This document shows positions 30,857 through 34,101 of a DNA stretch of 47,431 nt, piece by piece. The stretch lies in the NCBI GenBank assembly GCA_018623195.1, contig JAAZVY010000007.1:1-47431 (forward strand). Direction: 5' to 3'. The position numbers and the translations under genes are program-made. Positions within the stretch are counted from its first letter, which is position 1. Each line of letters starts with the position of its first letter. The notes beneath the pieces were generated by a model. The model worked only from the letters and a program-made list of their open reading frames with translations, was not told the DNA's origin and did no database searches. Origin of the DNA: Flavobacteriaceae bacterium (GTDB lineage: Bacteria; Bacteroidota; Bacteroidia; Flavobacteriales; Flavobacteriaceae).

Positions 30857-31810
30857 ATGACAAACACATTGATGCATACCGACTTTAATTTTAAAGGACA
30901 AAAGTCGGTTTACCGAGGAAAAGTAAGAGAGGTATATACCCTAGATAAAGGATTATTGGTGATGGTTGCCACCGATAGGCTTTCTGCTTTTGACGTAGTT
31001 ATGCCTAAAGGAATCCCTTTTAAAGGGCAAATATTGAATCAGATTGCCACACGTATGCTTCAGGATACCTCTTCAAAGGTTCCCAATTGGTTGCTGGCTA
31101 CCCCTGATCCTAATGTTGCCATTGGAAAGGCTTGTGAACCCTTCAAAGTAGAAATGGTAATTCGTGGGTATCTAGCTGGACACTCGGCTCGTGAATACGC
31201 GAAAGGTAAGCGTTCGCTGTGTGGAGTAGCCTTACCCGAGGGTCTTAAAGAAAATGATGCTTTTCCAGAACCTATAATCACTCCTGCAACGAAAGCAGAA
31301 CAAGGAGATCACGATGAAGATATCTCACGAGAGGAGATTTTATCCAAAGGAATTGTGAGTGAAGCAGATTATCTAGTACTTGAGAAATATACTCGCACTT
31401 TATTTGAAGAAGGCTCTCGTATTGCAAAGGAGAGAGGACTGCTCTTGGTAGATACCAAATACGAATTCGGGAAAACGGATGAAGGAGAGATCGTCTTAAT
31501 TGATGAAGTACATACGCCGGATTCATCTAGATACTTTTACGCAGATACTTATGAGGAGCTTCAAAGAAATGGATCACCTCAAAAGCAATTATCAAAGGAG
31601 TTTGTTCGACGTTGGTTGATCGAGAACAATTTTCAGGGACTTGAGGGGCAAACGCTACCGCACATGAGTGACGAATATATTGAAGGAGTGTCTGAACGTT
31701 ATATCGAGTTATACGAAGCAATCACTGCCGAAAAATTTATTAAAGCCGATACCGAGGATATACAAGAGCGGATTGAAAAAAATGTAAATGCCTATTTAGA
31801 AAACTTATAA
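30857..31810 (+). CDS. purC: Phosphoribosylaminoimidazole-succinocarboxamide synthase
   Basis: A 317-residue SAICAR synthetase, the ATP-dependent aspartate ligation step of purine synthesis. It has GKVREVY (20-26), TDRLSAFDV (about 36-44), VRGYLAGHS-type segment (IRGYLAGHS) and [11 protein letters not shown] (about 214-224). The length is that of the longer PurC class, which has a C-terminal extension. It probably shares the phoH promoter, since only one base separates the two genes. Confidence 0.96.
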
Positions 31811-32182: not shown

Positions 32183-32194
32183 TTCTTCTGATTG

Positions 32195-32268
32195 TAGCGA
32201 GGGGGGGAATTGAACCCCCGACCTCAGGGTTATGAATCCTGCGCTCTAACCACCTGAGCTACCTCGCC
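32195..32268 (-). tRNA. tRNA-Met (anticodon CAT)
   Basis: Read leftward, the acceptor GGCGAGG (32268-32262) pairs with CCTCGCT (32202-32196), ending in a G-T wobble. The loop TTCATAA gives anticodon CAT. Pairing of the first acceptor base argues for an elongator rather than an initiator tRNA. A lysidine-modified tRNA-Ile(CAT) cannot be wholly excluded without comparison. The top anticodon-stem pair is A-C. Confidence 0.9.
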
Positions 32269-32367: not shown

Positions 32368-32745
32368 ATGACGAAGTTTGAAATTGAGTTTGTGGTTCAT
32401 GCCTCACCATCATTATTATTTAATTATATATCAACACCTTCAGGATTATCTGAATGGTACGCAGATAACGTGAATTCACGTGGCGAAAAATTCATCTTTA
32501 TTTGGGATGAGTCTGAAGAAGAAGCCCTGCTTTTGAAGAAGAAGACCGACGAGTTTGTTCGTTTTAAATGGATGTATTCTGAAGATGATGATACCTATTT
32601 CGAAATGCGTATTGTTGTTGATGAATTAACCAAAGATGTTAGTCTTTTTGTGATTGATTTCGCTGAGGACGATGAGGTTGATGAGGCTAAAATGCTATGG
32701 GAGAACCAAATTGATGATCTAAAGAAAATCATCGGTTCCGTATAA
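32368..32745 (+). CDS. START-like domain protein
   Basis: A 125-residue acidic protein beginning MTKFEIEFVVHASPSLLFNYI. That opening and SEWYADNVN are typical of the START-like/SRPBCC family found throughout Bacteroidota. The fold is a helix-grip cavity, but no ligand or role is known. It precedes the class IV aminotransferase-fold gene by 15 bases. The upstream gap has no exact TAnnTTTG box in this direction. Confidence 0.85.
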   Translation: MTKFEIEFVVHASPSLLFNYISTPSGLSEWYADNVNSRGEKFIFIWDESEEEALLLKKKTDEFVRFKWMYSEDDDTYFEMRIVVDELTKDVSLFVIDFAEDDEVDEAKMLWENQIDDLKKIIGSV

Positions 32746-32760
32746 ATATCTTTTCTTGCT

Positions 32761-33552
32761 ATGAAAATTTGTAATGTCAACGGGTCATTAATTGATTCGG
32801 ATGAGTACTTTTTGTCTCTAAACAGTCTGACTTCGGGTTATTCCATAAGAGTTTATGAGCTTTTAATTTGTGATCAGCTTGAGGAAAGTGTCTTTGAGCC
32901 GTTCTATTTTTCTCTCATGGCTTCTATGCGCATTTACCGTATACCTATCCCGGTAAGCTATACCTTAGAATTTTTCATAACCGAAACACATAAATTACTT
33001 GAGGCAAATCAGGTTGGTCTTGAAAAAGTAGCTGTGAATTGGACCATTTTTTTAAACAAAGGAGTTTCAGAGTTTTCTATGTATTTGAAAGAATTACCAC
33101 AGGATTATTCAAGTACAAAATCGCTCGGGGAATTAGATCTTTTTAAAGATGGATTCTTAGGAGCAGACTACATATCAGGAGTACCATCAGAGAACCAAGC
33201 AGCATTGTATGTTGCTAAAGGGTATATGAATGACCATCAGCTTCAAGATGTTTTATTGATTAATCATAAAAAGGAAATTGTGCAAACCTCAAACGGATAT
33301 CTATTCGTTCGTTTTGGGGATGTGATAAAGACTCCAGCAGAGTCAACGGGTGTAACTCGACTGACTTTAAGAAATCAGTTTATAAAACAATTAAAGGATA
33401 GGGGAGTGACTATTGAAGAAGTAGCTCTAACTCCATTTGAACTCCAAAGAGCAGACGAGTGCTTTATATATAACCCTTTGAAAGGTGTTTTTTCGGTTTC
33501 AAATTATCGCAAAAAAATCTATGAAACTAGTTTCACTGAAACTCTGAACTAA
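32761..33552 (+). CDS. Class IV aminotransferase-fold protein, probably catalytically dead
   Basis: A 263-residue protein of branched-chain aminotransferase/ADC-lyase fold. Overall layout is kept: LMASMRIYRIPIP (near 55-67), a TSNGYLF strand, VTRLTLR and a C-terminal FELQRADECFI. Set against the family pattern by eye, the PLP Schiff-base Lys (LK-x-x-NR in active members) falls on Pro142 (CCA 33184-33186), the following NR reads NQ, the phosphate-binding Arg of HxxRL reads Ser, and the Glu before the SNG strand is Gln. PLP chemistry is therefore unlikely. The stop abuts the yqgE stop. Confidence 0.8.
   Translation: MKICNVNGSLIDSDEYFLSLNSLTSGYSIRVYELLICDQLEESVFEPFYFSLMASMRIYRIPIPVSYTLEFFITETHKLLEANQVGLEKVAVNWTIFLNKGVSEFSMYLKELPQDYSSTKSLGELDLFKDGFLGADYISGVPSENQAALYVAKGYMNDHQLQDVLLINHKKEIVQTSNGYLFVRFGDVIKTPAESTGVTRLTLRNQFIKQLKDRGVTIEEVALTPFELQRADECFIYNPLKGVFSVSNYRKKIYETSFTETLN
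33523..33534. repeat. Perfect 12-base palindrome at the end of the aminotransferase-fold gene
   Basis: GAAACTAGTTTC reads the same on both strands and lies 16 bases before the shared stop junction of two convergent genes. It has no loop, so a terminator role is doubtful. Confidence 0.25.
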
Positions 33553-34101
33553 CTAGTTATTTCTCGGATCTTCTGGTGCGTTCGCATAAAGAAGAAATTC
33601 ACCTCCTAATTGGGTCATTTGATTCTTCCACATCGACTTTGGAGGTGATTGAAGAATTTTTTCTTTATCGCTGTTAGGAGCGACCACCCAAGAATCAGCA
33701 TCGATTTCTCCTTGTAATTGTCCAAACTCCCAACCTGAGTATCCTAAAAAGAATCGAATTTTATTCGAGTCGATCTCACCAAGGGCTAATTGCTCGCTTA
33801 GTTCGTTAAAGTCGCCACCCCAATAGATACCATCCTTAATTAAAACACTATTTGGAATGTAATCTGGTAGACTGTGAATAAAATATAGATTATCAGATTC
33901 AACAGGCCCTCCTCTGTAAATCATATATTCAGAAGTTACTTCAGGAATTAAATCACTCAATTGGTAATGCAATGGTTTGTTCATTACAAATCCAATACAG
34001 CCAGACTCATTAACCTCTGAAAGTAAAATGACTGATCTTGAAAAGTGATAGTCTAAGGCCAAAGAAGGATCTGCTATTAGTAAATCTCCAGACTCAAACA
34101 T
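33553..34101 (-). CDS. yqgE: YqgE/AlgH family protein
   Basis: A 182-residue protein that opens with GDLLIADPSL (5-14), typical of this family, followed by SVILLSEVNESGCIGFVMNK and GGPVESDNLYFIH (about 64-76). Function is unsettled: AlgH was named for alginate control in Pseudomonas, but the family is widespread and may act in general stress or metabolism. It lies downstream of the HU gene but beyond a strong terminator, so it needs its own promoter, which I could not see in the 73-base gap. Confidence 0.93.
   Translation of the reverse strand: MFESGDLLIADPSLALDYHFSRSVILLSEVNESGCIGFVMNKPLHYQLSDLIPEVTSEYMIYRGGPVESDNLYFIHSLPDYIPNSVLIKDGIYWGGDFNELSEQLALGEIDSNKIRFFLGYSGWEFGQLQGEIDADSWVVAPNSDKEKILQSPPKSMWKNQMTQLGGEFLLYANAPEDPRNN

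Follow-up and report, generated by a model that had tools for sequence, protein, structure and literature searches.

A class IV aminotransferase-family gene from a bacterium of the Flavobacteriaceae, lying in a 47,431-nucleotide stretch of DNA (hereafter the window), appears to encode an ortholog of PabC, the aminodeoxychorismate lyase of the pABA/folate pathway, whose PLP site has been dismantled while the rest of the protein remains under constraint. Comparison across related genomes shows that the loss of the PLP site is tied to the absence of a long PabB and is accompanied by constraint at the protein level. As an overall explanation, we regard it as reasonably probable that PabC was freed by the loss or replacement of PabB, lost its PLP site, and has been retained on account of a non-catalytic role. 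The window makes up a single contig of a genome of 1.7 Mb (G000; 87% complete), and the locus within it is comprised of the following features:

32194-32268, minus strand: tRNA-Met (anticodon CAT), in the 557-base gap before the START_2 gene
32368..32745, plus strand: START_2 (PF19569) protein of 125 aa (127.7 bits), candidate partner
32761..33552, plus strand: class IV aminotransferase-family ORF (ATG start, 263 aa plus stop), Lys-less PabC homolog, predicted pseudoenzyme
33553..34101, minus strand: YqgE/AlgH family gene, convergent to the PabC homolog (ORF list and profile match)

The START_2 gene ends 15 bases 5' of the PabC homolog on the same strand, and the two probably form an operon; the layout with START_2 upstream and YqgE downstream is common to many Lys-bearing PabC loci. 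The 557-base gap separates START_2 from an ORF ending at 31810, which we take to be purC. The tRNA-Met in this gap is encoded on the strand opposite to START_2, and the gap region 5' of START_2 shows 91-96% identity in the two closest relatives.

Profile searches place the window protein in the class IV family: it matches Pfam Aminotran_4 (PF01063) with 57.6 bits (cut-off 28.5), so that the original prediction of a protein keeping the shape of the family is upheld at the level of profile matches; AlphaFold models from three sequences, the window protein and two relatives, had a mean pLDDT of 38. Its top NCBIfam model is TIGR03461 pabC (pabC_Proteo; 49.7 bits, under the cut-off of 176.85), which is also the top model for nine of 10 scanned Lys-bearing relatives, with a BCAT subfamily model being ahead by about 1 bit in the tenth; all 10 score 108-142 bits against TIGR03461, again under its cut-off. 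A structure search with the window protein as a single sequence recovered PabC (3lul) as the top solved structure, and a 20-sequence family profile matched E. coli PabC (1et0, 1.9e-19) and 3lul (6.4e-27), with BCAT structures coming out slightly ahead (5e25, 3.9e-29). The window protein can be aligned over its length with Lys-bearing copies from the same locus, with ~30-40% identity to many of them. Our best call, made from sequence comparison and short of a match at the curated pabC threshold, is that the gene is the flavobacterial PabC ortholog. As BCAT structures match the profile slightly better, the PabC identity of the ancestor is argued mainly from its association with PabB (see below); the live, Lys-bearing relatives are very likely ADC lyases.

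A MAFFT alignment of the window protein, E. coli K-12 PabC (NC_000913), and ORFs from 88 related loci reveals the following substitutions at key positions of the active site:

32911..32913, plus strand: Ser51 at the position of the PLP-phosphate Arg (E. coli PabC Arg45; alignment)
33184..33186, plus strand: Pro142 at the position of the Schiff-base Lys (E. coli PabC Lys140; ungapped alignment)
33283..33285, plus strand: Gln175 at the position of the pyridine-N Glu (E. coli PabC Glu173; alignment)
33361..33363, plus strand: Leu201 at the strictly conserved Gly199 (alignment; role from PMC3174152)

Most of the aligned relatives have LKTNN(K/R) or a similar sequence in the Lys140 region, and the window protein has Pro142 in place of the lysine, followed by N145-Q146 in place of NR. 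Together with the replacement of the Arg of HxxRL by Ser51 and of Glu by Gln175, these are the changes that had been read from the window sequence by itself, and each is borne out by the alignment, which further reveals that the His of the HxxRL motif is also gone (F48). Seven residues are strictly conserved across four solved PabC active sites, viz., Phe27, Thr29, His43, Arg46, Lys140, Gly199, and Arg202 (P. aeruginosa numbering), and a side chain at Gly199 would clash with the PLP phosphate, according to PMC3174152. Only Arg202 (R204 of the window protein) is retained among these seven, and from this pattern of residues the protein has very probably lost PLP catalysis.

The loss is tightly associated with the status of PabB. 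We called a long PabB by a best TIGR00553 E-value of <1e-80 and searched 98 relatives, separating relatives that possess a long PabB (286 bits or more against TIGR00553) from those whose best match was TrpE-like (a label read from length and score), another chorismate enzyme, or none. The survey was widened to 397 genomes of the family, with PabC being gathered from the genomes lacking a long PabB and from 50 control genomes possessing one, three of which (G188, G209, G213) yielded no PabC ortholog. The counts leave out a genome's other class IV protein (L001), a second class IV gene (L092, G059), a gene with its frame broken by a TGA (L093, G051), two fragments (L147 of G185 and, at a contig edge, that of G058), and duplicates of other rows (L002-L005). 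Every one of the 114 sampled genomes possessing a long PabB (67 and 47 controls) retains the lysine, which is lost in 54 of the 68 sampled genomes without one. A score counting the seven active-site residues reaches 6 or 7 for 113 of the 114 long-PabB genomes; it is 5 or less in all 26 genomes with a short PabB (described below), and two-peaked in the other 42, of which 11 are at 6 or 7. A counterexample is G033, a 99% complete genome without PabB in which all seven residues are intact. We rejected a change of Glu173 as a marker of loss, since three genomes with a long PabB and the lysine have Gly or Ser there (L179 of G300, L219 of G262, L063 of G067), and the lyase reaction may be able to proceed without the pyridine-N Glu. 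G033 also has Gly at this position, which is no evidence of loss because its PabB-bearing sister G300 has the same change. In the genus of the window, a profile search found neither a long nor a short PabB in any of 11 genomes (including G000, 87% complete); class IV matches number two in 10 of them and one in G006. Dihydropteroate synthase is present in 10 of the 11, consistent with the use of imported pABA by this genus.

The absence of a long PabB takes more than one form. We examined 55 of the 68 genomes lacking it, hand-chosen with a preference for complete assemblies and Lys-less copies, and found a short PabB (~320-390 residues, 146-184 bits) in 26, all of which have lost the lysine of the old PabC; in the other 29, including the genus of the window, neither a long nor a short PabB was seen. 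The 16 short PabB proteins that we read match NF005486 (ADC synthase component I) with 400-470 bits (cut-off 275), and all 16 genes overlap or directly abut an ORF of ~200 residues (in stop-to-stop frames) that codes for a further class IV protein above the Pfam cut-off (35.7-67.6 bits). Each of these 16 short class IV proteins displays a K-x-x-x-R segment by eye, with the aligner not placing its Lys on Lys140. The short PabB and short class IV pair apparently takes the place of the standard PabB/PabC in several genera. The old PabC was probably displaced in these genomes, and the pair (L157-L172) may move between lineages. We accordingly discarded the simpler notion that PabB was lost everywhere, as 26 genomes carry a short version (16 confirmed by the family model).

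On a quick PabC tree with long branches, from which the main active-site columns had been removed, a minimum of 10 changes is required for the lysine and of 15 for the PabB status, in a count that is blind to loss versus gain and whose lysine changes are raised by three members of the genus that align a Lys at position 140. The tree offers five well-supported independent pairs and none in the opposite direction, with the sign test not being significant (median p 0.5). Losses of the lysine within a genus, beside sisters bearing both PabB and the lysine, are seen in G295 (versus G028 and G443) and G407 (versus G239), and the phosphate Arg alone has changed in two more genera (G151 versus G350 and G351 versus G152). 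We take the loss of the lysine to be recurrent, with its likely cause in the loss or replacement of PabB.

Several other explanations were weighed against the retention of a catalytically inert PabC. That PabB is merely missing from incomplete assemblies scarcely deserves credence, as the lysine is lost in 41 of the 47 genomes that are without a long PabB and have a completeness of 90% or more, and the absence of PabB throughout the genus of the window extends to assemblies that are 99%, 97%, and 96% complete. Incompleteness may nevertheless explain some exceptions: 14 of the 68 genomes without a long PabB keep the lysine, eight of them along with Arg and Glu, and seven of these eight are less than 90% complete (the eighth is at 94%), such that the PabB of the incomplete ones may simply be unassembled, while that of G218 (one of the eight; best match 8.6e-78) may be a cut long PabB. 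We also consider it improbable that the gene became useless upon the loss of PabB and is slowly drifting toward decay, with the intact ORFs being recent or lucky survivors. Such a course would fit the long end branches of several Lys-less copies, the in-frame TGA splitting the PabC gene of G051 into two ORFs (L093; without PabB), possibly a case of real decay, the TAG inside the matched PabC stretch of G320 (L152; without a long PabB), and the finding that 21 of 69 further family genomes without a long PabB show no PabC ortholog. Against it, Nei-Gojobori dN/dS values for the window gene and two relatives with 88-89% identity are 0.145, 0.088, and 0.126, and those of other Lys-less pairs with unsaturated dS are 0.06-0.17 (one pair at 0.31), i.e., far below 1 and, apart from that one pair, within the range of four live pairs (0.05-0.19), even if several dS values exceed 1 and are rough. 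When the window gene was mutated neutrally in simulation (0.4 or 0.79 substitutions per site), none of 2000 copies remained stop-free; full-length ORFs are found in homologs down to ~30% identity; and many residues outside the pocket are 82-100% conserved over ~33 effective lineages. The faster evolution of PabC relative to START_2 was dropped as a sign of relaxation because it is seen in dead and live pairs alike. The original prediction of a conserved pseudoenzyme rather than a decaying gene, for which a dN/dS comparison across relatives had been suggested as a check, is thus supported by the low values in the window trio (0.09-0.15), the full-length ORFs, and the simulation; the predicted status of the window protein as a pseudoenzyme fits both the loss of catalytic residues and purifying selection. 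The identification as PabC and the connection with the disappearance of PabB go beyond that original prediction.

To locate this constraint, we took the 68 columns that are conserved among 41 functional members of the family and scored their weighted retention in 54 Lys-less homologs. In E. coli numbering, the pocket shows low values (Lys140 0, Phe26 0.10, Gly199 0.14, Thr28 0.18, Asn236 0.19, Arg45 0.32, Glu173 0.38), as does the Tyr of the flavobacterial GGxYxP loop, which adjoins E. coli Tyr92 (0.01); some non-pocket positions drop too. It is highly unlikely that these proteins are still PLP enzymes, acting via another Lys or with non-covalently bound PLP: the equivalents of Arg202 and His42 are kept at 0.82 (the window protein itself being without the His), and the three genus members noted above align their Lys in the segment GVKTPSS, but the window protein is devoid of six of the seven strictly conserved active-site residues. 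The most specific candidate for a relocated Schiff base, which had been named at the outset as an observation that would count against a pseudoenzyme, was a Lys at window position 153, found in 15 of the 54 Lys-less homologs, none of the 67 functional ones, and seven of the 11 genus members. We rejected it, as PLP contacts are even scarcer in its bearers than in the other Lys-less homologs, with Arg45 retained in two of 15 versus 16 of 39, and Gly199 in one of 15 versus nine of 39; on sequence grounds, the pseudoenzyme reading stands. The distribution of Lys153, along with the loss or replacement of the GGxYxP loop segment, could alternatively point to a cavity remodeled after the loss of PLP to bind another ligand or perform other chemistry. 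We judge this unlikely, given that no common new residue emerges: 13 different residues occupy the Lys140 position across the 54 copies, and the alignment shows no further Lys column that the majority of them have gained.

Retention of the dead PabC for a non-catalytic role, which we consider likely, finds a possible structural correlate in a set of highly retained residues centered on the following motif:

32896..32952, plus strand: retained motif E46..Y49...M53...R57..R60..I63-P64 (retention 0.82-1.00 in Lys-less homologs)

In window numbering, the retention is 1.00 for Arg57, 0.97 for Tyr49, Ile63, and Pro64, 0.95 for Arg60, and 0.94 for Glu46, with Phe226 (0.92), Lys251 (0.91), and Arg250 (0.88) being retained further along the protein. 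The family fold suggests a helix at residues 46-61. When this segment is assumed to be helical, E46, Y49, M53, R57, and R60 fall on one face, and the retention clusters on that face, opposite the position of the PLP-facing Arg (permutation p 0.008, 11 positions).

START_2 is directly upstream of the Lys-less PabC in 51 of 54 cases, and two of the remaining three are at contig edges, giving 51 of 52 that can be determined; the third is G045, a genome in which a search found no START_2. After exclusion of four contig-edge rows out of 182, Arg57 is present in 148 of 150 homologs with START_2 directly upstream versus 13 of 28 without, a contrast that is confounded with phylogeny. Among the 69 further family genomes without a long PabB, 48 have a PabC ortholog, indicating that, once PabB is gone, PabC is deleted in some genomes but more commonly persists in a form devoid of its chemistry. 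START_2 is kept in 15 of the 21 that are devoid of PabC, and in nine of these it directly faces YqgE (L220, L221, L223, L226-L228, L230, L231, L234), which suggests that PabC has been cleanly excised in several lineages lacking a long PabB. No PabC-like ORF was found in the 15 START_2 stretches. Because START_2 persists without PabC in these 15 genomes, neither PabC nor its partnership with START_2 is obligatory, and the nine cases of START_2 facing YqgE led us to reject START_2 as an obligate partner of PabC. START_2 as a partner of PabC is a tentative proposal, to which we give somewhat less than an even chance.

Bringing these strands together, we propose that the loss or replacement of PabB released PabC from catalysis. 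The PLP pocket was then dismantled, losing the Lys of the Schiff base, the Arg that binds the phosphate, the catalytic Thr, the Glu facing the pyridine, the GGxYxP loop, and Gly199, and the rest of the protein stayed under purifying selection. The flavobacterial PabC would already have possessed a second, non-catalytic role before the loss of catalysis, perhaps carried by the surface of the first helix that points away from the cofactor and connected with the START_2 protein of the gene directly upstream, and this role alone would now keep the gene. More speculatively, and with a little under even confidence, PabC beside START_2 might be bifunctional even when live, combining pABA synthesis with a structural or regulatory role mediated by the E46/Y49/M53/R57/R60 face together with a YRKK segment at the C terminus, such that repeated losses or replacements of PabB strip away the enzyme and leave the second function behind. 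If so, the family would offer a natural series of live, half-dead, and fully dead PabC copies. More generally, enzymes taken to be single-purpose can hide a second function that is visible only once the first has gone. In the present case, one and the same folate enzyme has apparently been stripped of its chemistry several times, through the loss of its pathway or the replacement of its gene, with the protein being kept, which renders the hidden function testable. There is also a caution for annotation: these Lys-less genes pass the Aminotran_4 cut-off, and their presence could be mistaken for a sign of pABA synthesis.

Pseudoenzymes as such are well established, and our survey suggests that a Lys-less PabC is undescribed: no description of it or of the START_2-PabC arrangement was found in searches of open-access full text, judged by the titles and the starts of the abstracts among the papers listed. 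START_2 (PF19569), the immediate upstream neighbor in most homologs examined, belongs to an unrelated family, and its nearest solved structure (2lio) is named an uncharacterized protein. The short PabB (NF005486/PRK07093) with its ~200-residue class IV protein resembles the PabB-PabC system in coupling a chorismate enzyme to a class IV protein, but it differs from the window PabC in size and locus, and the pair was not found in the genus of the window. The window protein is like the PabC of E. coli (1et0) and P. aeruginosa (PMC3174152) in family, length, and best NCBIfam match, and differs from them in being without the Schiff-base Lys and six of the seven strict residues, and in that no PabB was found in its genus. 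In M. tuberculosis, PLP-family relatives presumed to be non-enzymatic are reported (PMC12910592), and Rv0812 is reported to be a PabC-type protein that also fulfills another role (PMC8105722). Rv0812, as described there, bears both roles on one working active site, whereas the second role of the window PabC would be non-catalytic.
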